Virus record (IMG/VR): IMGVR_UViG_3300017739_003884
Location: 1 to 21,060 of that record
DNA length: 21,060 nucleotides
Direction: 5' to 3' (one strand)
Source of the DNA: a virus
Both the position numbers and the translations under genes were made by a program. Under the pieces are notes generated by a model that saw nothing but the letters and a program-made list of their open reading frames with translations, was not told where the DNA came from and made no database searches. Positions 6,876 to 20,434 of this stretch are shown here, one piece after another (the stretch's first letter is position 1; every line of letters begins with the position of its first letter).

Positions 6876-6885
6876 TATATTTATA
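6876..6885 (+). promoter_or_regulatory. TATATTTATA motif
   Basis: TATATTTATA lies in the 32-nt gap after the portal gene, 13 nt before the ATG at 6899. It matches the recurrent element. The portal stop region contains AAGGAG (6858-6863), but this is too far from the next start to act as its ribosome site. Confidence 0.45.
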
Positions 6886-10144: not shown

Positions 10145-11254
10145 ATGGCAAACAGAGACTTGTTAGCAGACGCTATTGCGGATGCAAAAGCAGTTAAAGA
10201 AGTAGCTATCGCTAATGCGAAAGCCGCTTTAGAAGAAGCTTTTACACCTCATCTTAAAGACATGCTTGCTCAAAAAATTAACGAAATGGAAGATTTGGAA
10301 GAAACCGAACTTGCAGAAGTTGATAAAGAGAAAAAGATGGACGAAGAGAAAGAGATGGATGAAGCTTACGGTAAAAAAGACATGGACGAAATGAAAGACA
10401 TGGACGAAGAAAAGGACATGGATGAAATGAAGGACATGGATGAAGAACTCGATTTAGAAGAAATTCTAGCCGAGTTAGAACTCGAGGAAGAAAAGGACAT
10501 GGATGAAATGAAAGACATGGATGAAGCTAAGGACATGGACGAAATGAAAAAGGACATGGACGAGGAAAAAGACATGGATGAAATGAAAGACGTGGACGAA
10601 ATGAAAAAGGATATGGATGAAGACATGGACATAAAGGACATGGATGATGCCGAAATAAGCCTCGAGGACATGAGTGAAGATGAGTTAAAAACCATGATTG
10701 AAGATGTTATTGAAGACATGATTGAAGATGGTGAACTCGTTCCTGGCCCAAATGCAGATGAGTCTGAAGAAGAAGAAATGGAAGACACAGATGATGGTAT
10801 GGAAGGAGACGCTGACGTAGATATCGAAGTTGATGATATTGATCTTGAAGAAGGTAAAGAAAAAGTTGATGAGGAAAAGGATAAAATGGAAGAAGAATTA
10901 GCGGAAGCTAAAGAAGCAATCACCCAATTACGTTCTGATCTTAATGAAGTTAACTTATTAAACTCTAAATTACTCTATACTAATAAGATTTTCAGAGGTA
11001 AATCCCTTACAGAAAATCAAAAAATTAAGGTTTTAAAGGCTTTTGATAAAGCCGAAACAGTTAAACAAGCAAAAACCATTTTTGAAACTCTTAATGAAAA
11101 TTTAGTTACTAAATCTACTAAATCTAACATTAGAGAATCATTAGGTTCTGCTTCTAAACCTGCGGGTGTTGCTCCTAAGCGTAATCTGAATGAAGGTATT
11201 ATTCAAGAAGATGCTATGATAGCACGCTTCCAAAAATTAGCAGGTATTAATTAA
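10145..11254 (+). CDS. gp22: Prohead core scaffolding protein (T4 gp22-like) with acidic Met-rich repeats
   Basis: A 369-residue, extremely acidic protein in the gp22 position between protease and capsid genes. Residues 1-48 form an Ala-rich helix. Residues ~65-168 are a low-complexity array of MDEMKD and MDEEKD units. Residues ~169-245 are an Asp/Glu tail region. Residues ~245-330 form a coiled coil (DEEKDKMEEELAEAKEAITQ) and a conserved-looking segment, NLLNSKLLYTNKIFRGKSL. The C-terminus is QEDAMIARFQKLAGIN. The scaffold fills the prohead and is digested by the gp21-type protease; IIQE near the C-terminus fits the (L/I)xE cleavage preference of T4. Identity rests on context, composition and the C-terminal segment. 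It has a dedicated leader and probably shares a transcript with the capsid gene, 23 nt downstream. Confidence 0.8.
   Translation: MANRDLLADAIADAKAVKEVAIANAKAALEEAFTPHLKDMLAQKINEMEDLEETELAEVDKEKKMDEEKEMDEAYGKKDMDEMKDMDEEKDMDEMKDMDEELDLEEILAELELEEEKDMDEMKDMDEAKDMDEMKKDMDEEKDMDEMKDVDEMKKDMDEDMDIKDMDDAEISLEDMSEDELKTMIEDVIEDMIEDGELVPGPNADESEEEEMEDTDDGMEGDADVDIEVDDIDLEEGKEKVDEEKDKMEEELAEAKEAITQLRSDLNEVNLLNSKLLYTNKIFRGKSLTENQKIKVLKAFDKAETVKQAKTIFETLNENLVTKSTKSNIRESLGSASKPAGVAPKRNLNEGIIQEDAMIARFQKLAGIN
10337..10648 (+). repeat. 18-nt-type tandem repeat coding for KDMDEM units
   Basis: The DNA repeats variants of GACATGGATGAAATGAAA (six codons), sometimes shortened to four codons, coding for MDEMKD, MDEEKD and MDEAKD units. 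The array is interrupted around 10450-10495 by a segment coding for LDLEEILAELELEEE. Copies differ at third-codon positions (GAC/GAT, AAG/AAA), so the array is not a very recent expansion. Confidence 0.8.
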
Positions 11255-11277: not shown

Positions 11278-12942
11278 ATGTCAAATTTAAATTCTCTTTT
11301 AGAGAGCGCTAATCAGTGGAAATCAGTTCAGTCTGATGCCGCTAAATTAGCCTCAAAATGGGATAAGACAGGGTTGTTAGAAGGCCTCGGAAATGAGGTT
11401 GAAAAAAACAACATGTCTTTAATCCTTGAAAACCAGGCGAAACAACTCGTTGTTGAATCGTCTCAAACTAGTGGTGGTATCGGTAATGGTGCCTCCTTTG
11501 CAGGTGGTCAAGGTGAACAGTGGGCTGGTATTGCTCTTCCTCTCGTAAGAAAGGTATTTGGTCAAATTGCAGCGAAAGATTTCGTTAGCGTTCAACCAAT
11601 GAGCTTACCTTCAGGCCTCGTGTTCTTCCTTGATTTCCAATATGGTGGTGGTAAAGCTCTTGATAGCGGCACTAGCATTGATGGTGGTAAATTCACTGCA
11701 GGTGGTGATGTATTTGGTGCTGGCTCTATGTACGGTCAAACTGATACTGCTACTGCCCCAACTGGTGGTTTATATGGTGCAGGTAAGTGGACTTACTCTA
11801 CTAACGTAACCCAATCTTTACCTCTTACTCCTGGTGGATTCGTTTCTGCTTCTTGGGCAGATCTCGGATACGATTCTGATCTTTCAGCTTCTGTTTCTGC
11901 TGGTGATATTGTAAAAGTAACTATTGCAGGTACTAACTTCAAAAACGCAGATGAAGAAGGTGCAAGAGGTATGAATATTAGTGCAGGTGGTGGTGTAGAT
12001 ACAAATAATAATTATGCAGCCTACAATAACTTTGATGGTACTAACTTTAATTTATTTGTTTCTTCATCTCCTCAGGATGCACCTACTGATGTTCAGGTAG
12101 TTTACCCACAACAAACCACAGCTCAATTGAGAGGTGATTTCGAAGACGGTAATACTAACTTAAACGAGGAAAACAATCCTATTGATATCCCAGAAATCAA
12201 TGTTAAATTAAAGTCTGAAGCTATTGTTGCTAAAACTAAAAAGTTAAAGGCTGTATGGACTCCTGAATTTGCTCAAGATTTGAATGCTTACCACAGCTTG
12301 GATGCTGAGGCTGAGTTAACTTCAATCATGAGTGAATACATCGCTCTTGAGATTGATTTGGAAATCCTTGGTATGTTGATCGAAAATGCTCTTACTACTG
12401 ACTACTGGTCAGCTGTTAATAACAGAGCATATGATGGCACTACTGATACTCCTTCAACTAGTGATCTTGGATTCTTTAATACACAGGGTCAATGGTTCCA
12501 GACTTTAGGTACTAAATTAAATAAGGTATCTAATAAGATTCACCAGTTAACTTTAAGAGGAGGCGCTAACTTCTTAGTTTGCTCTCCAACTATTGGTACT
12601 ATTTTGGAATCAATTCCTGGATTTGCTGCCTCTGATGGTGCTGATGCTGATTCTATGAATTATGCATTTGGTATCCAAAAAGTTGGTAACTTAAATAGTA
12701 AGTACCAAGTTTATAAGAACCCATACATGACTGAAAACACAATCTTGTTAGGATTCAAAGGCTCACAATTCTTGGAAACAGGTGCTACTTTCGCTCCTTA
12801 CATTCCATTAATTATGACACCTCTTGTATACGATCCAGATACCTTTACTCCAAGAAAAGGTCTCTTAACTCGTTATGCTAAGAAGATGTTGAGACCTGAA
12901 TACTACGCTAAGATCTATGTTAATGGTTTGAATACCCTCTAA
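11278..12942 (+). CDS. gp23: Major capsid protein (T4 gp23-like)
   Basis: A 554-residue HK97-fold shell protein. The gp23 signature is clear at residues ~81-112: QWAGIALPLVRKVFGQIAAK followed by VSVQPMSLPSG. The C-terminal part has the family features LGFKGSQFLETGATFAPYIPL and a PRKGLLTRYAKKMLRPEYYAKI ending. Residues 1-~60 are a helical delta-like segment probably removed by the gp21-type protease. Candidate sites are ILE51 and VVE60, the latter just before the Gly-rich SSQTSGGIG. Middle residues (~120-290) are Gly/Ser/Thr-rich and probably form a surface insertion. The start is preceded by AAAAACAAAAAA and no Shine-Dalgarno. Codon use is richer in C-ending codons (TTC, AAC, TAC) than its neighbours, as expected for the most abundant protein. 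Confidence 0.95.
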   Translation: MSNLNSLLESANQWKSVQSDAAKLASKWDKTGLLEGLGNEVEKNNMSLILENQAKQLVVESSQTSGGIGNGASFAGGQGEQWAGIALPLVRKVFGQIAAKDFVSVQPMSLPSGLVFFLDFQYGGGKALDSGTSIDGGKFTAGGDVFGAGSMYGQTDTATAPTGGLYGAGKWTYSTNVTQSLPLTPGGFVSASWADLGYDSDLSASVSAGDIVKVTIAGTNFKNADEEGARGMNISAGGGVDTNNNYAAYNNFDGTNFNLFVSSSPQDAPTDVQVVYPQQTTAQLRGDFEDGNTNLNEENNPIDIPEINVKLKSEAIVAKTKKLKAVWTPEFAQDLNAYHSLDAEAELTSIMSEYIALEIDLEILGMLIENALTTDYWSAVNNRAYDGTTDTPSTSDLGFFNTQGQWFQTLGTKLNKVSNKIHQLTLRGGANFLVCSPTIGTILESIPGFAASDGADADSMNYAFGIQKVGNLNSKYQVYKNPYMTENTILLGFKGSQFLETGATFAPYIPLIMTPLVYDPDTFTPRKGLLTRYAKKMLRPEYYAKIYVNGLNTL

Positions 12943-12964: not shown

Positions 12965-12999
12965 GAGAAAGCCCCACTTCGGTGGGGCTTTTTTATTCT
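12965..12999 (+). terminator. Strong rho-independent terminator after the capsid gene
   Basis: AAAGCCCCAC (12968-12977) pairs with GTGGGGCTTT (12982-12991) around a C(UUCG)G tetraloop, with a T-run to 12994. Flanking GAGAA/TTCTC can extend pairing. This is the most G+C-rich structure in the window and a textbook terminator after a highly expressed gene. Confidence 0.95.
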
Positions 13000-13012: not shown

Positions 13013-13022
13013 TATATTTATA
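13013..13022 (+). promoter_or_regulatory. TATATTTATA motif before the enzyme operon
   Basis: TATATTTATA lies between the capsid terminator and the ATG at 13048 (25 nt away). Because a terminator precedes it, the downstream three genes need their own promoter, and this is the best candidate. Confidence 0.5.
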
Positions 13023-13047
13023 GTAAACCAATAAAAGTATATATTAA

Positions 13048-13962
13048 ATGAAAGAGACACCCTCTCAGTTGCCAATTCCGGCATTTGTTATGAATTTTCC
13101 CTTCACATTAGACACAGCAGTTCCAAATAATGTTTGGATGCAAGAATTGGAGGAAGAAGCGTTAAAAGTAAATAAAGGGAACGCTTATAGACAATTTTTA
13201 GATTTATATCAATTTGTAGCAGGTAATGGACTTGTATGTAATCTTCCTGCTAAAGGAAATTATCAAGATTTAGTTTACGTTGCTAACTTAGGTATTTACC
13301 TCCCTCACATCAAAGATTCAAATAATATTATTATGGCTAACTTCACTTCAGAACCTCGTCAAGGTGAAGAAGAAGTAGGAAAACCATTCTTTGAATTAAT
13401 GGATTATAAAGTCCATATGTGTCCTTTTAAATGGGAAGGAGAAGCTGATCTAAAATATCTTTATGATAATGTTTACATAGGGGGATATGGAATCCGTTCA
13501 GACATTAAAGCTTATGAATGGATGGAAAAAGAATTTAATATGAAAATCATTAAACTTGAAATGGTTGATGAATATTTATATCACCTTGATTGTTCTATTT
13601 TCCCGTTAACTATGAATAAAACATTAGTTTGTACGGAACTCTTTAATGAAAATGAGCTAGCCGAATTATCACAATATACTAACATAATAAACGTAGAAAT
13701 TGACGATGCTCTTAATGGAATCACTAATTCCGTACGTTTAGGTAACATGATTTTATGTGCTTCTAATATTTCAGAACTAACTAGAGCAGATGAAAATTAT
13801 GATGCCGAAAGACATAAAATAGAAAGTCTAGAAAAAATATGCTTTAATGAAGGCTTAGAACCAGTATTCTTTAACCTTTCGGAATATATGAAATCAGGTG
13901 CTATGCTAAGTTGTATGATGATGCATTTGAATTACGTTGATTATACTAAATCTTTACTTTAA
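13048..13962 (+). CDS. Guanidino-group-modifying enzyme (DDAH/amidinotransferase-like)
   Basis: A 304-residue protein with the motif order of the amidinotransferase/dimethylarginine dimethylaminohydrolase superfamily. The early DLVYVANLGIYLP strand and SEPRQGEEE (101-109) fit the conserved Arg/Glu segment. FKWEGEAD (127-134) fits the FEGGD motif with Glu130. GGYGIRSD (145-152) fits the G-x-R(T/S) loop. YLYHLDCSIFPL (176-187) provides His179, and GAMLSCMMMHLN (284-295) provides the C-terminal nucleophile Cys289. A Cys-His-Glu triad is thus intact. Family members hydrolyse or transfer the amidino group of arginine, methylarginines or agmatine; which one here cannot be told. It is the first gene of a unit with phosphatidylserine decarboxylase and PhoH genes (TAATG overlap). 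Superfamily confidence is high; substrate is unknown. Confidence 0.82.
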   Translation: MKETPSQLPIPAFVMNFPFTLDTAVPNNVWMQELEEEALKVNKGNAYRQFLDLYQFVAGNGLVCNLPAKGNYQDLVYVANLGIYLPHIKDSNNIIMANFTSEPRQGEEEVGKPFFELMDYKVHMCPFKWEGEADLKYLYDNVYIGGYGIRSDIKAYEWMEKEFNMKIIKLEMVDEYLYHLDCSIFPLTMNKTLVCTELFNENELAELSQYTNIINVEIDDALNGITNSVRLGNMILCASNISELTRADENYDAERHKIESLEKICFNEGLEPVFFNLSEYMKSGAMLSCMMMHLNYVDYTKSLL

Positions 13963-14711
13963 TGGCTCAATATTTAGAAGATTGGTTAGATGGAGAAGTA
14001 GCTGAGCTTTCAAAGTTAGAAGTAGGAGAATTATCCAACACATTCTTTTTTAGGGACCCAATGCGCCCTAACTACATAGACTACAAACATTTTTACTCCC
14101 CGGCCGACGGTACTATTTTATACCAAAAGTTTATAGAAAATCCTACTGATCCCATAGTAGAGATTAAAGGTATGAATTATACTTTACAAGATGTACTTGG
14201 TAATAAACATTATAATCAACCCTCTCTTGTAATTGGCATATTTATGTCATTTTATGATGTTCATATAAATAGAATACCGTATGCTGGTATATTACAGTAT
14301 AAAGGATTAGATCCTATAGAATCTACTAACAAGCCTATGCTTGCTGTAGAAAAAGATATTTTAAATGCTGCTATTAATCCTAATAATTTAGAATATCTTA
14401 AATATAATGAAAGAATGTTAAATAAAATATATTCTCCACAATTGGATTATACTTATTATTTAGTACAAATTGCGGATGAAGATGTTAATGTAATTGCTCC
14501 TTTTATTAATGACCAAAATGCACCCGTATCACAAAATGAACGTTTTTCACTTATAAGATGGGGCTCACAAGTTGATTTAGTTCTTCCTTTAGATGAAAGA
14601 TATGATTTTGATCTTGTTTTAGAAGATACAATGCATATAAATGCAGGATTAGACAAACTAGTTAAAATTAATTTTAGAAATGACCCATTTCAACAACACC
14701 CCCAAAGCTGA
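13962..14711 (+). CDS. psd: Phosphatidylserine decarboxylase-like proenzyme (short, type A-like)
   Basis: A 249-residue protein matching the short (archaeal/type-A) phosphatidylserine decarboxylases. Blocks in order: FYSPADGTI (44-52) with the triad Asp49; VEIKGMNYTLQDVLG (66-80); GIFMSFYDVHINRIPYAG (92-109) with His101; LKYNERM (146-152); LVQIADEDVNVIAP (167-180); and NERFSLIRWGSQVDLVLP (192-209). The last contains Gly201-Ser202, where self-cleavage makes the pyruvoyl-bearing alpha chain. All three proenzyme-processing residues are present, so it looks active. Known members decarboxylate phosphatidylserine to phosphatidylethanolamine at the membrane; related enzymes use other substrates. No membrane segment is obvious. 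The gene overlaps its neighbours by 1 nt (upstream) and 32 nt (PhoH). Confidence 0.85.
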   Translation: MAQYLEDWLDGEVAELSKLEVGELSNTFFFRDPMRPNYIDYKHFYSPADGTILYQKFIENPTDPIVEIKGMNYTLQDVLGNKHYNQPSLVIGIFMSFYDVHINRIPYAGILQYKGLDPIESTNKPMLAVEKDILNAAINPNNLEYLKYNERMLNKIYSPQLDYTYYLVQIADEDVNVIAPFINDQNAPVSQNERFSLIRWGSQVDLVLPLDERYDFDLVLEDTMHINAGLDKLVKINFRNDPFQQHPQS

Positions 14712-15378
14712 AGATATCTTCAGAGAAAAAAAAGTAGTGAAAAACCCTATAAAATTTAAGATTCCACTTAATGAAGAACAAAAAGAAGCTAAACAGCTAA
14801 TTTTAGATAACACTATAACGTTATTAGCAGGTCAAGCAGGATCAGGAAAAACATTATTGGCATGTCAAGTAGCATTAGATGGATTACTTAGAAGAATATA
14901 CACTAAAATTATTATTACTCGGCCTACAGTAAGTAAAGAAGAAATAGGATTCCTACCCGGGGATTTAAGGGAAAAAATGGATCCTTGGGTTCAACCTATT
15001 TATCAAAACTTATATATGTTGTATGATAAAGCTAAAGTTGAAAAACTTATAGCGGACGGTAAGATAGAAATTGTTCCTGTATCATTTATGAGAGGTAGAA
15101 CATTTTTAGATTCATGTGTTATCGTAGATGAAGCACAGAATGTAACTCACGATCAAATGGAAATGATTACTACTCGTTTAGGTTTACGATCTAAAATGAT
15201 GGTATGTGGGGATGCTCACCAAACAGACCTAAAGAAAAAATCAGACTCAGGATTTAAATATTTATATAAAGCTTCTAAAAAAGTAAAAAATCTTGAAGCT
15301 ATAACCTTAAATTCTAACCATAGAAATGAAATTGTAGAAGATTTGCGAGATTATTACACTGATAATCCAATTTACTGA
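14680..15378 (+). CDS. phoH: PhoH-like ATPase
   Basis: A 232-residue P-loop protein. Walker A is GQAGSGKT (51-58), ITRPTVSKEEIGFLPGD (79-95) is the hallmark PhoH segment, and Walker B is VIVDEAQN with D150/E151. CGDAHQTD and a LNSNHRNEIV ending complete the superfamily-1-helicase-like core. PhoH-like proteins are common in marine T4-like phages; the biochemical role is unsettled (RNA-linked ATPase or helicase activity in relatives, and the phosphate-starvation link varies). The start at 14680 lies 32 nt inside the preceding gene; no later ATG would keep the P-loop, so overlap is real or an unusual start is used. No terminator was found after it. Confidence 0.92.
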   Translation: MTHFNNTPKAEDIFREKKVVKNPIKFKIPLNEEQKEAKQLILDNTITLLAGQAGSGKTLLACQVALDGLLRRIYTKIIITRPTVSKEEIGFLPGDLREKMDPWVQPIYQNLYMLYDKAKVEKLIADGKIEIVPVSFMRGRTFLDSCVIVDEAQNVTHDQMEMITTRLGLRSKMMVCGDAHQTDLKKKSDSGFKYLYKASKKVKNLEAITLNSNHRNEIVEDLRDYYTDNPIY

Positions 15379-15412: not shown

Positions 15413-18400
15413 ATGGCAAAAATTAATTGGGACAATAGAGCAGATAGCGGGGCTAATAGTGCGGTTAGTGCCTCTATATTTAATGACACAAAAACCTCAG
15501 TAAATACTTTATATGACGTTGTAAATGCACGTTTAGGAACTACATCCTCTGATGCGACTGCTCGTGTAAACTTTACAGGACCTACTACAATTTCGGGTTC
15601 TATGCAAGTATCAGGTAGTATTATACCCAATGTAAAGGATGGGGCAACTACTTCTTCATTTGATTTAGGAAGCCCTACCCAAGCTTGGAGAGATATTTAC
15701 GTTTCTGATGGGTCTATAAAATTTGTTAAAGACGCAAGTGTTTCATCTTTTACTAAACAAGAATTAGATGATATACAAGCAGGTAAATCCGCCACTACTG
15801 GATCTAAAGGTGGTTTAGCTGCAGGTGAATGGCAAACTGCTAAGGCAATATTTGCTGAGGATGATGTAAATACCCTTGTAAGATTTGGTTCAGATAGAAT
15901 TTATTCCCAAACTAATAGTGGTATTTTAGTAGATTTAAACGGTAATACAATTACCTTAGGTAAAACAGGTAATACTACTACTACTACTATACTAGGTAAC
16001 ATAACCACTTCAGGATCTCTTACTATATATCCTCCCGATGATGATTGCCAGCAAGTAGTATTTGATCCTAATGGGTTTATTCTTATAGATTGTTGTGGTG
16101 GTTTAATAGCGGGCACGGGTGCTACTGTTGATTTTACTAAATGCGCTCCCTTTTCTATTGGAAATTTCACTCAAGCAGTAGGAGATTATTCTTTTGCTCA
16201 TGGATACCAATCATACGCCTCAGCTTCATATGCTTTTGCCCAGGGATTTCAAACCCATGCAGCAGGTAATGCTGCCCATGCTGAAGGTAGAGAAACCTCA
16301 GCTTCGGGTGTTCAATCTCACGCTGAAGGTAGAGATACTATTGTAACAACTGCAGGATCAAATGCCCACGCTGAGGGTAATTTTACAACAGCTTCTGCTC
16401 CCTTTTCCCACGTTGAAGGTCAATATAGTGAGGCAGCAGGTCTATCATCTCATGCTGAAGGTCATTTTACTAGAACTACGGGCCTAGCAGCCCACTCCGA
16501 AGGTTCACAATCACTAGCTTCAGGAGCACAATCTCATGCTGAAGGTAGACTTACAACAGCTTCGGGTGGTCAATCCCATGCTGAAGGCTTTAGCACAAAA
16601 GCAGTAGGTTCATGGTCACATGCTGAAGGTAGCTTTACAACAGCTACTGCTTTATACTCACACGTTGAAGGTTATAATACTGAAGCTCTTACAGGAGCTA
16701 ATTATTCACATGCCGAAGGAAGTGGTGTTAATACTAAAGGAGATTATTCACACGCTGAAGGTAAAAATACTGTAACTAATGGCCTTTATTCCCATGCTGA
16801 AGGTGAAAGTACTATAACAGCTGAAGTTGCAGATTCATCCCATACTGAAGGTTTAGGTACTATTACCTCAGCTTCACACCAACACGCTCAGGGTAAATAT
16901 AATACCCATAATAATACTACTTCGTTAATGATTATCGGTAATGGTAGTGATACTAATAACCGAAATGATTTAGCCTTATTTGATCCCACTGCTATTTTCT
17001 TAAATGCTTCTGTTACTGCTAGCCAAGTAGTAAGTGCAAGTGGTGCCTTATTTGCAGGCATCCCACAGGATACAAATGGTAGTGGCAGTACTACAGTAGT
17101 TTATGACCCAACTACAGGTGAATTTCTTTATACTGGGTCTTATGGAAGTGGAGGATCAGGAGTAGATGATGATTGGCACATATTAGCGGATAATAGTGCT
17201 ATTACTTCCTCTAGAACTGCTATAATTACAGGAAGTTTAGCTCAAGGTAGCACTATTCAAATTAGTGGTACTGACTCTCATGGTCAAGGATTTGGATCTC
17301 ATGCTGAAGGAAACTATTCTCATGCTGAAGGAAATACTACCCAAGCTAAAGGTGAAGGCTCACATGCTGAAGGTAGAGATACTATAGCATTAGGATCATA
17401 TTCCCATGCTGAAGGTAAAGATACCACAGCTACGGGATCATATTCCCATGTTGAAGGTAAAAATACTGATGCTAAAGGAAATTATTCACATGCTGAAGGT
17501 GATACAACCCGCACAGAAGGAGATTATTCACACGCTGAAGGTAGATTTAGTGTAGCTACTGGGGATTATTCACATGCTGAAGGTTCTTCGAACGTTGCAA
17601 CGGGTAGATATTCACATGCTGAAGGGGAACAAACCAGGGCCCTAGGAACTATATCCCACACAGAAGGTTCATTCACTGTTACTTTTGAAACAGGATCCCA
17701 CTCAGAAGGTCTATTTACTAGTGCTAGTGGCCAATATTCACATGCTGAAGGACAACAAACTAATGCAATTGGATTGGGTTCACATGCTGAGGGGCAGCTT
17801 ACTAGAGCAGCCTATGATTATTCCCATGCTGAAGGTAGACAAACTTTAGCTAGTGGATCATATTCTCATACCGAAGGCTACCTCACAACAGCTTCCGCAA
17901 ATTATAGCCACACCGAAGGTTATTTAACTAAAACTTTAGCAGCTTATGATCATGCCGAGGGTCAAGAAACAATAGCTAAAGGATCAGCATCACATGCCGA
18001 AGGACTTCAAACTGTAGCCTCAGGGGCGGCATCACATGCCGAAGGAATTAGTACCCTTGCAATAGGAGCATCTTCACATGCTGAAGGTAGGACTACTTTA
18101 GCCTTAGGACAACAATCTCATGCTGAAGGTTACTTTACTACAGCCTCAGGTTTAACTTCTCACGCAGAAGGTAAAGAAACAGAGGCAGTAGGTGAAGCTG
18201 CTCACGCTGAAGGTCAATACACATTAGCTTCTGGAAGTTTTGCTCACGCTGAAGGTTCAGGATCTATAGCTTCTGGAAGTTGGTCACACGCTGAAGGAGG
18301 TCAAACTTTAGCTACTGGTACAGCAGCTCATGCTGAAGGTATATCTACAATAGCTTCAGGCCCTACATCACATGCTGAAGGTGATACTACTATAGCTAGT

Positions 18401-20434
18401 AATAAATCCTCACATGCCGAAGGCAGACTTACTTTAGCCAGTGGTGCCTCATCTCATGCTGAAGGCGTTAGTACTTTAGCGTCCGTTCTTGGTGCCCACT
18501 CTGAAGGTAGATTCACTACAGCTTCAGGATTGTATTCTCACGCTGAGGGTCAGTTAAGTGTGGCATCTGGTCAAGAAGCCCACGCCGAAGGTAATAGCAC
18601 TTTAGCCTCAGGAGATCAATCCCATGCTGAAGGTGTATCTACAGTAGCTTCGGGTCTATATTCTCATGCTGAAGGTTCGGGTTCAATAGCATCATCCTTA
18701 TCTGCTCATGCTGAAGGTCAAGATACTAAAGCAACATCATATAATGCTCATGCTGAAGGTAGCAATACCCTAGCTTCAGGAATTTCTTCACATACTGAAG
18801 GATTACTTACTACGGCTTCAGCAAAAAATACCCATGCTGAAGGAGAGTTAAGTATGGCTGTTGAAAGAGGAGCACACGCAGAAGGTTTACATACAATTGC
18901 CTCGGCATCATACCAACATACTCAAGGTAAATATAATGTTACTAATACTACTTCATTAATGATTATTGGTAACGGTACTGATAATGATAATAGAAGTAAC
19001 TTAGCCTTATTTGACCCAAATGCTATTTTCTTTAACGCTTCAGTTACAGGTAGCCAAGCTATAAGTGCTAGTGGTGCTTTATTTGCAGGTATCCCACAGG
19101 ATACAGATAATAGTGGTACTAACACAGTAGTTTACAACCCAACTACAGGTGAATTTGAATATACTGGGTCCTATGGAACTGGAGGAGATGGGAATGATGA
19201 TGATTGGCACATAACAGCAGATAATAGTGCTATTACTTCCTCTAGAACTACCATAATCACAGGTAGTTTACTTGCGGGGGATGCAGGTAATATTGCTACT
19301 AACAATTCTGTTACTTTTGGTCAGAGTACACAAGCAACTGGTGAAAATTCACAAGTCCAAGGTATAAGCTCATTATCTTCTGGAAATTACTCTCATGCTG
19401 AAGGAGCTAGTACCATTGCTTCAGGACAAACTTCTCATGCTGAAGGTAAAGGTACTAGAGCTAGTGGTGAGGCATCACATGCTGAGGGTAATGAATCAAT
19501 AGCTTCGGGAGATTATTCTCATGCCGAGGGTTCGTCAACGAACGCATCAGCAGAAAGCTCACATGCTGAAGGAAGCCAAACTAGTGCACAAGCTGAAGGA
19601 TCACATGCTGAAGGTAGATTTACTACAGCTTCAGGAATTTATTCACATACCGAAGGTAGACTTACTGTAGCTACTGGTAGTTATTCCCACGCTGAAGGTT
19701 ATTTAACCTATACTTCTGGAGCATACTCACATGCTGAGGGTCTCCAAACAATAGCCTCAGGTACTTATTCACATGCTGAAGGTGAAAGTACTATTGCTCG
19801 AGGAAGTTATTCGCATGCTGAAGGTGATGATACTTTAGCATTGGGAGCAGGATCTCACGCTGAAGGTAAAATAACTTCGGCATCAGGTGATTATTCACAT
19901 GCTGAAGGATGGGATACTATTGCTGGAGGTAATTACTCACACGCTGAAGGTTATCTTTCTGAAGCACAAGGTGGATATTCTCACGCTGAAGGTAATGCTA
20001 CTGTAGCTTTAGGAATATCTTCACATGCTGAAGGTCAGTTAACATCAGCTTCTGCAAATTATTCACACGCTGAGGGTTATAAAACAGTTGCAGATGGGCA
20101 GTACTCCCATGTAGGAGGTGCTTTCTCAACGTCTTCTCATCAATATACCCATGTACATGGTTTAAACTTAAAAGATGGAAATACTCACCAAACAGTAGTA
20201 GGCCAGTATAATAATTCGGGTTCAGGTGCTGCGGGTATAGATAATATTTCGGATGCTTTATTTGTAATAGGTAATGGAACTAGCCTTGCAGCAAGAAAAA
20301 ATATAGTAGTAATAAACTTAGCAGATGGTATCTATATAGATTCTGGTGCATTACCTACATCTGCACCTGCTCAATCTAATAGACTCTGGAGACAAGATGA
20401 TGGTGCCGGAGGATACAACTTAAAAATTACTTAA
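15413..20434 (+). CDS. Giant tail fibre/adhesin with SHAEG (YadA-head-like) repeats
   Basis: A 1673-residue probable host-recognition fibre. Residues 1-~260 include MAKINWDNRADSG, SMQVSGSIIP and FDLGSPTQAWRDIYVSDGSIKF, the last a pattern I know from marine phage structural proteins, and probably attach it to the virion. Then come three blocks of a 14-residue repeat, SHAEGxxTxASGxY: 14, 39 and 17 copies by my count of HxEG. Each repeat is expected to form one turn of a left-handed beta-roll as in the YadA head, normally trimeric. Each block ends in a cap domain containing G(K/Q)YN and IIGNG or VIGNG (aa ~492, ~1170, ~1595). The C-terminus ends RLWRQDDGAGGYNLKIT. Its own promoter-like element precedes it. 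The exact tail position and receptor are unknown; an autoproteolytic chaperone tail was not identified. Confidence 0.85.
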   Translation: MAKINWDNRADSGANSAVSASIFNDTKTSVNTLYDVVNARLGTTSSDATARVNFTGPTTISGSMQVSGSIIPNVKDGATTSSFDLGSPTQAWRDIYVSDGSIKFVKDASVSSFTKQELDDIQAGKSATTGSKGGLAAGEWQTAKAIFAEDDVNTLVRFGSDRIYSQTNSGILVDLNGNTITLGKTGNTTTTTILGNITTSGSLTIYPPDDDCQQVVFDPNGFILIDCCGGLIAGTGATVDFTKCAPFSIGNFTQAVGDYSFAHGYQSYASASYAFAQGFQTHAAGNAAHAEGRETSASGVQSHAEGRDTIVTTAGSNAHAEGNFTTASAPFSHVEGQYSEAAGLSSHAEGHFTRTTGLAAHSEGSQSLASGAQSHAEGRLTTASGGQSHAEGFSTKAVGSWSHAEGSFTTATALYSHVEGYNTEALTGANYSHAEGSGVNTKGDYSHAEGKNTVTNGLYSHAEGESTITAEVADSSHTEGLGTITSASHQHAQGKYNTHNNTTSLMIIGNGSDTNNRNDLALFDPTAIFLNASVTASQVVSASGALFAGIPQDTNGSGSTTVVYDPTTGEFLYTGSYGSGGSGVDDDWHILADNSAITSSRTAIITGSLAQGSTIQISGTDSHGQGFGSHAEGNYSHAEGNTTQAKGEGSHAEGRDTIALGSYSHAEGKDTTATGSYSHVEGKNTDAKGNYSHAEGDTTRTEGDYSHAEGRFSVATGDYSHAEGSSNVATGRYSHAEGEQTRALGTISHTEGSFTVTFETGSHSEGLFTSASGQYSHAEGQQTNAIGLGSHAEGQLTRAAYDYSHAEGRQTLASGSYSHTEGYLTTASANYSHTEGYLTKTLAAYDHAEGQETIAKGSASHAEGLQTVASGAASHAEGISTLAIGASSHAEGRTTLALGQQSHAEGYFTTASGLTSHAEGKETEAVGEAAHAEGQYTLASGSFAHAEGSGSIASGSWSHAEGGQTLATGTAAHAEGISTIASGPTSHAEGDTTIASNKSSHAEGRLTLASGASSHAEGVSTLASVLGAHSEGRFTTASGLYSHAEGQLSVASGQEAHAEGNSTLASGDQSHAEGVSTVASGLYSHAEGSGSIASSLSAHAEGQDTKATSYNAHAEGSNTLASGISSHTEGLLTTASAKNTHAEGELSMAVERGAHAEGLHTIASASYQHTQGKYNVTNTTSLMIIGNGTDNDNRSNLALFDPNAIFFNASVTGSQAISASGALFAGIPQDTDNSGTNTVVYNPTTGEFEYTGSYGTGGDGNDDDWHITADNSAITSSRTTIITGSLLAGDAGNIATNNSVTFGQSTQATGENSQVQGISSLSSGNYSHAEGASTIASGQTSHAEGKGTRASGEASHAEGNESIASGDYSHAEGSSTNASAESSHAEGSQTSAQAEGSHAEGRFTTASGIYSHTEGRLTVATGSYSHAEGYLTYTSGAYSHAEGLQTIASGTYSHAEGESTIARGSYSHAEGDDTLALGAGSHAEGKITSASGDYSHAEGWDTIAGGNYSHAEGYLSEAQGGYSHAEGNATVALGISSHAEGQLTSASANYSHAEGYKTVADGQYSHVGGAFSTSSHQYTHVHGLNLKDGNTHQTVVGQYNNSGSGAAGIDNISDALFVIGNGTSLAARKNIVVINLADGIYIDSGALPTSAPAQSNRLWRQDDGAGGYNLKIT
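16193..16876 (+). repeat. SHAEG repeat block 1
   Basis: Tandem units of about 42 nt, each with a core like CAYGCTGAAGGT. There are 14 HxEG copies, preceded by two or three degenerate units (AHGYQSY, AQGFQTH). Some units are 45-48 nt, so the spacing is less regular than in block 2. Confidence 0.9.
16877..17239 (+). repeat. Inter-block cap/linker, copy 1 of a long direct repeat
   Basis: It codes for the QHAQGKYN...SLMIIGNG cap and a linker with GIPQD, TGEF and TGSYG. It is a diverged direct copy of 18911-19270; from 16915 on the two align without gaps for 325 nt, and many third positions differ. Confidence 0.9.
17297..18910 (+). repeat. SHAEG repeat block 2
   Basis: 39 HxEG copies with an almost unbroken 42-nt period (14 residues) over about 1.6 kb. 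Only the first unit is shortened to 7 residues (SHAEGNY). Synonymous changes between copies (CAT/CAC, GCT/GCC, GAA/GAG) are frequent. Confidence 0.92.
18911..19270 (+). repeat. Inter-block cap/linker, copy 2 of a long direct repeat
   Basis: Second copy of the cap/linker seen at 16877-17239, one codon shorter near the start (NTHNNTTS against NVTNTTS). Shared stretches include GALFAGIPQDT and DNSAITSSRT. It separates blocks 2 and 3. Confidence 0.9.
19391..20119 (+). repeat. SHAEG repeat block 3
   Basis: 17 HxEG copies plus a final degenerate SHVGG, on the same 42-nt period. It is followed by the third, diverged cap (VVGQYNN...VIGNGTS) at the protein C-terminus. Confidence 0.9.

Follow-up and report, generated by a model that had tools for sequence, protein, structure and literature searches.

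A candidate arginine-to-putrescine cassette, pairing an arginine dihydrolase relative with a phosphatidylserine decarboxylase-like protein, in T4-like phages and bacteria

What would a phage do with a gene for a guanidino-modifying enzyme (GME) that runs directly into a gene resembling phosphatidylserine decarboxylase (PSD), both placed among structural genes? The arrangement occurs in a T4-like phage, on a viral fragment of 21,060 bases, the whole record of which is the window analyzed here. A first-pass annotation had read it as an overlapping operon of GME, PSD, and PhoH that might remodel membrane lipids before lysis. We propose instead, with a probability of about two in three, that GME and the PSD-like protein form a two-step module leading from arginine via ornithine to putrescine.

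Locus layout and transcription signals

The three open reading frames (ORFs) exist as first described, with overlaps of 1 nt (GME/PSD-like) and 32 nt (PSD-like/PhoH), and the flanking genes are those originally named, a capsid gene on the 5' side and a repeat-rich, fiber-like ORF on the 3' side. The features are as follows.

11278-12942, + strand: major capsid protein gene, upstream context (phrog_138 major head protein, 8e-67)
12965-12994, + strand: rho-independent terminator in the gap between capsid gene and cassette (fold and paired changes)
13014-13022, + strand: ATATTTATA, candidate promoter or start-proximal element (conservation in 14 aligned sequences; intergenic enrichment)
13048-13962, + strand: GME gene, 304 aa (ORF)
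13285-13287, + strand: codon of Asn80, equivalent to AgrE/ArgZ Asn71 (alignment, conservation)
13912-13914, + strand: codon of catalytic Cys289, equivalent to AgrE/ArgZ Cys264 (alignment, conservation)
13962-14711, + strand: PSD-like gene, 249 aa (ORF)
14562-14567, + strand: Gly201-Ser202, predicted self-cleavage site giving the pyruvoyl cofactor (conserved in 43/43 cassette proteins)
14680-15378, + strand: PhoH-like ATPase gene, 232 aa (ORF; Pfam PhoH, 4e-63)
15413-20434, + strand: fiber-like ORF with SHAEG-type repeats, downstream context (ORF)

The terminator 3' of the capsid gene proved to be real, folding at -21.5 kcal/mol (z -5.6) with a stem that is kept by paired changes among relatives. 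The promoter-like motif that had been assigned to the cassette fared less evenly. Sigma-70-like matches are at chance level in the window (23 observed versus 20.4 expected), the one at 13017-13045 stopping 3 nt short of the GME ATG, and a search for a T4-type TATAAATA late promoter directly 5' of GME gave nothing above chance. What stands is a conserved element, ATAT(T/G)TATA, located about 30 nt 5' of the first ATG and kept in 14 of 14 aligned sequences. The window contains six copies of ATATTTATA, four of which are intergenic (at 6877, 8292, 13014, and 15387, some 12 to 34 nt 5' of gene starts, that of the fiber gene included), though intergenic DNA makes up 3.9% of the window. This distribution makes ATATTTATA a possible promoter of this phage group.

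The PhoH protein matches PF02562 at 213 bits, against a cutoff of 27. It was considered as a functional partner and rejected; PhoH is the next gene in 63 of the 63 viral loci with room for it, but none was found beside bacterial cassettes. PhoH is part of the phage neighborhood and an ordinary neighbor that probably lies outside the metabolic module. Other genes of the window include one for a protein with long DMDEMKDMDE acidic-methionine repeats (10145-11254), just 5' of the capsid gene in the prohead-core position. SHAEG-type repeats, of the kind seen in the heads of YadA-like adhesins, make up most of the 1,673-aa fiber-like protein (15413-20434). A FAD/NAD oxidoreductase-like ORF (335-1918; Pyr_redox_2, 5e-9; phrog_12409) lies 5' of the structural genes, and a small nucleoside triphosphate kinase is encoded at 2175-2693 (AAA_28; phrog_2107, thymidylate kinase-like).

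The two cassette proteins

The GME protein, a member of PHROG 12759, had no match in a Pfam search. Its nearest PDB entries by sequence are AgrE and ArgZ (E value of 6e-18, or 7e-31 in a profile search). An AF2 model (pLDDT 93.6) matched ArgZ in Foldseek with an E value of 3e-22 and an rmsd of 2.4; the top 13 matches were all ArgZ/AgrE (3e-22 to 2e-18), and DDAH followed at 1e-12. Amidinotransferase or DDAH, our first identity for GME, was dropped as the best match after the structure search favored ArgZ/AgrE. In a profile alignment, window residues N28, D74, N80, R104, E130, R150, H179, and C289 correspond to AgrE N22, D65, N71, R90, E118, R139, H168, and C264, and all eight mapped active-site residues are invariant in 48 proteins. 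The roles assigned to these residues draw on PDB titles, in which the mutants N71S and C264S appear as trapped complexes with an intermediate and with substrate. Arg90 and Arg139 presumably hold the substrate carboxylate, a group that is absent from agmatine. The products of ArgZ are ornithine, CO2, and ammonia (PMC9952445, PMC8262935).

GME shares with the cyanobacterial ArgZ (Sll1336) and AgrE (Alr4995) the fold, the catalytic Cys/His/Glu, and the positions of Asn71, Arg90, and Arg139. It differs in being a stand-alone protein, about 24% identical, that lacks the ornithine cyclodeaminase domain and has a decarboxylase partner instead. The NCBIfam arginine dihydrolase model NF052232 scored 82 bits, below its cutoff of 450, and the dimethylargininase model scored a similar 78 bits, likewise far under its cutoff. 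By these scores, GME is a relative of the arginine dihydrolase family and not an equivalog, and it may have DDAH chemistry.

The PSD-like protein, PHROG 12670, belongs to PF02666 (1.2e-23; 84.3 bits versus a cutoff of 22) and not to PF02675, the AdoMet_dc fold. The residues of the Asp-His-Ser self-processing system and the Gly-Ser site (D49, H101, G201, and S202) are found in 43 of 43 cassette proteins, as are the PADG motif and the conserved His. The Pfam match and the intact self-cleavage residues would suit a true phosphatidylserine decarboxylase, and in 3 of 20 bacterial genomes the cassette protein is the only PSD. Against that, a second, better-scoring canonical PSD is present in the other 17, and the best score to any NCBIfam PSD equivalog model is 70.8 bits, far under the cutoff of 183. 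In a tree with canonical PSDs from the same bacteria, a branch with support of 90/92 separates the cassette proteins from the canonical ones, several branches being long and the exact root uncertain.

Several residues set the two groups apart. Cassette proteins have D172 (43/43) and D174 (42/43) where short canonical PSDs have G172 and V/I174, and Q203 and H225 (42/43 each) where these have R203 and K/R225. The canonical R176-R177 pair is also lost, being replaced by D/N and then mostly by S/C/V/T, and an extra segment at residues ~123 to 134 contains an invariant M126 and E130. The lost arginines appear anion-binding-like in canonical PSDs, and the loss of positive residues together with the gain of negative ones would suit a cationic substrate. 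Short-type phosphatidylserine/archaetidylserine decarboxylases (PF02666) have the superfamily, the PADG motif, the conserved His, and the Gly-Ser self-cleavage site in common with the cassette protein, which differs in having GSQ for GSR, Asp-x-Asp for the ARR segment, the extra segment, a separate branch, and a link to arginine metabolism. Foldseek searches with the AF2 model (pLDDT 84.7) gave E. coli PSD and the tryptophan decarboxylase PsiD as best matches; the similarity to E. coli PSD is modest (TM 0.47 to 0.49), and the cassette-specific insertion is poorly modeled. PsiD (PDB 8x4q) is also a PSD-superfamily protein and acts on a free amino acid, L-tryptophan, although it is fungal and its substrate is a different one. 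The cassette protein is most likely a repurposed look-alike of a membrane-lipid enzyme.

Distribution and replacement of the decarboxylase

Scans of viral contigs yielded 27 GME relatives at first; scans that used alignments gave 232 matches for GME and 177 for the PSD-like protein, of which 80 each were kept. The PSD-like gene is next to GME in 78 of 80 GME-centered viral loci with room downstream. The 1-nt overlap recurs in 73 of those 78, and the PSD-like/PhoH overlap is confined to close relatives. On the upstream side, 70 of 72 loci have the capsid gene. The pair of intact enzymes is therefore a conserved phage unit, as the first-pass annotation had it, found with its capsid gene and PhoH in many contigs and with its catalytic residues conserved in homologs; in the literature searched, no paper joining the two enzymes was found, also in line with that annotation.

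Among annotated phages, 46 records contain a close GME (40 Campylobacter and 6 Bacteroides) and 45 a PSD-like protein (39 and 6, in the same two groups). A further match of the GME search, from Xanthomonas, is a distant DDAH-like protein. Bacteroides phage DAC19 has the two genes side by side; in Campylobacter phage NCTC12673, about 40 kb separate them. In the latter (L031, 7694-10185), the PSD-like gene has a GroES homolog on one side and, on the other, a Hef homing endonuclease gene overlapping its end.

In bacterial and archaeal genomes, one scan found 63 loci. One of these, L166, was set aside as a phage contig binned with Flavobacteriales, a capsid gene being present, which left 62 bacterial loci. 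The PSD-like gene adjoins GME in 50 of the 62, or in 50 of 58 after removal of 4 of the 12 exceptions, three cut by a contig edge (L189, L216, and L225) and one masked upstream (L167). It is nearly always upstream of GME, so the gene order is swapped relative to phages. The pair occurs in at least eight phyla: Acidobacteriota, Actinomycetota, Verrucomicrobiota, Pseudomonadota, Campylobacterota, Bacteroidota, Latescibacterota, and Eiseniibacteriota. GME and PSD-like distance matrices covary across 30 bacterial pairs (r 0.84; 0 of 1,000 permutations as high). Most bacterial cassettes are followed by a MATE or ABC exporter, and a PotD-like polyamine-binding gene stands beside 10 loci, all in Verrucomicrobiota.

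GME loci without a PSD-like gene usually have another amino acid decarboxylase alongside, not lipid genes. In four cyanobacteria this is an AR-fold pyridoxal phosphate (PLP) decarboxylase, for which the nearest model is LysA and not ODC, at a score far under cutoff. In Spirulina the genome's only Orn/Lys/Arg decarboxylase adjoins GME, and in a Myxococcales MAG an NspC-like carboxynorspermidine decarboxylase does so. Immediately upstream of the two exceptional viral GMEs, L026 and L027, which come from one phage type, is an AdoMetDC-fold protein (PF02675; Pfam 1.7e-18), and a motif scan gave a second, independent partner of that fold in L309. The central region of the L026 and L309 proteins, GLSAIQLITTSSITFH...YLDIFSC, contains, in this order, Gln, Thr, Phe, and Tyr, the positions being assigned by our own comparison to T. 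maritima S63, H68, and C83 and not from a published figure. According to PMC10407285, these four residues are diagnostic of pyruvoyl ornithine decarboxylases. Four of five freshwater phage proteins of the SpeDC group acted on ornithine alone or with a mere trace of activity on arginine, and the fifth took both (PMC9992855). The AdoMetDC-fold swap is the strongest pointer to ornithine as the partner's substrate. Phage SpeDC catalyzes the reaction that we propose for the PSD-like protein, also by pyruvoyl chemistry, and its homolog fills the partner slot in L026/L027 and L309; the PSD-like fold is unrelated, and no dihydrolase partner for SpeDC is reported in PMC9992855 and PMC10407285.

When the AdoMetDC protein of L026 was used to search for relatives, only near-copies came back. 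Of the 49 loci from the motif scan, most are of another type with no nearby GME, and the ornithine-type loci L285 and L297/L307 have no nearby GME either. In L309 (771-1847, minus strand), the SpeDC-like ornithine decarboxylase domain, which directly precedes a GME, shares one reading frame with a long stretch upstream of it; this may reflect a fusion or a missed start. Three cyanobacterial clusters (L199, L201, and L213) combine the PLP decarboxylase and GME with an agmatine-deiminase-like protein and ABC exporter or ABC-transport genes, L201 having also an 1,815-aa NRPS-like ORF nearby; these may be natural-product or polyamine clusters.

Proposed pathway and its alternatives

From the observed genes, fold, residue conservation, adjacency in phages and bacteria, and decarboxylase swaps, we infer which substrates are used, which product is formed, how the steps are ordered, and what the cassette does in infection. 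GME would carry out the arginine dihydrolase reaction, in which hydrolysis of L-arginine yields L-ornithine, CO2, and two ammonia. The PSD-like proenzyme would cleave itself at Gly201-Ser202 to form a pyruvoyl group and would then decarboxylate L-ornithine to putrescine. Putrescine carries a positive charge, and phages use it for making and packing DNA; made alongside the structural genes, it would serve phage DNA synthesis, charge neutralization, and packaging. T4 in polyamine-depleted E. coli shows less DNA synthesis and less virion maturation (PMC7226272), which suits the position of the cassette beside capsid genes.

Bacterial genomes bear on the product in both directions. In the acidobacterial genome G007, an AdoMetDC and a Spermine_synth-family protein are encoded near each other, LysA is the only AR-fold decarboxylase, and there is no Orn/Lys/Arg type, so that putrescine in this genome could come from the cassette. 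G003, G004, and G008 also have only a LysA-type AR-fold enzyme, and they lack AdoMetDC; counts of Orn_Arg_deC_N per genome do not separate ODC from LysA. The absence of AdoMetDC from many cassette genomes is a point against our reading, and together with the usual neighboring exporter it suggests that the product may be exported and not spent on spermidine. AdoMetDC elsewhere in phage genomes was not found in 12 records, several of them fragmentary.

The same product could be reached in reverse order, the PSD-like protein converting arginine to agmatine and GME agmatine to putrescine. The agmatine-deiminase-like gene adjoining GME in cyanobacteria hints at agmatine and against an ornithine route, and in a pelagiphage, a relative of AdoMetDC decarboxylates arginine (PMC9992855). 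This order is nevertheless improbable in light of the two retained arginines of GME, equivalent to Arg90 and Arg139, and of the ornithine-type residues in the AdoMetDC partners of L026 and L309. We hold it equally doubtful that the exported product is instead a different amine or guanidine natural product (one derived from methylarginine or lysine, for instance), borrowed by phages for signaling or competition. The exporters after most bacterial cassettes, the NRPS-like genes near some GME loci, and the near-equal dimethylargininase score would fit such a product, but phage cassettes lack the exporter, and the SpeDC-type swap and the PotD-like neighbors point to a diamine. A true phosphatidylserine decarboxylase raising phosphatidylethanolamine late in infection, with GME separate, is less likely still, given the branch and lost basic residues described above, the constant pairing with an arginine enzyme, replacement by amino acid decarboxylases, and a search of 12 phage records, several fragmentary, in which no CDP-alcohol phosphatidyltransferase, a potential source of phosphatidylserine, turned up. 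Phosphatidylserine as substrate and lipid remodeling as function, both put forward in the first-pass annotation, are thus probably wrong. The separate lines of evidence are each circumstantial; jointly, they make the putrescine reading about twice as likely as all rivals combined.

Polyamine synthesis by phages and viruses is already known, via arginase or host ornithine and decarboxylases that are PLP dependent or of the AdoMetDC fold, and three folds are listed for ornithine decarboxylation, namely, AR, aspartate aminotransferase, and AdoMetDC (PMC9992855). In the literature searched, no PSD-type fold is described for this reaction. We lean, by a modest margin over an even chance, toward the wider claim that cassette PSD-like proteins are pyruvoyl L-ornithine decarboxylases of a fold new to the reaction and that, with the dihydrolase, they constitute an undescribed PLP-free pathway from arginine to putrescine that is present in at least eight bacterial phyla, mostly alongside an exporter, and was captured by several phage lineages. 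If true, ornithine decarboxylation would gain a further fold, that of a PSD-type enzyme partnered by a dihydrolase, PHROGs 12759 and 12670, so far of unknown function, would be explained, and the labels "phosphatidylserine decarboxylase" and "amidinotransferase" would be corrected in dozens of Campylobacter phage records. Phage PSD matches should accordingly not be read as lipid auxiliary genes, and putrescine gaps in bacteria would be filled.
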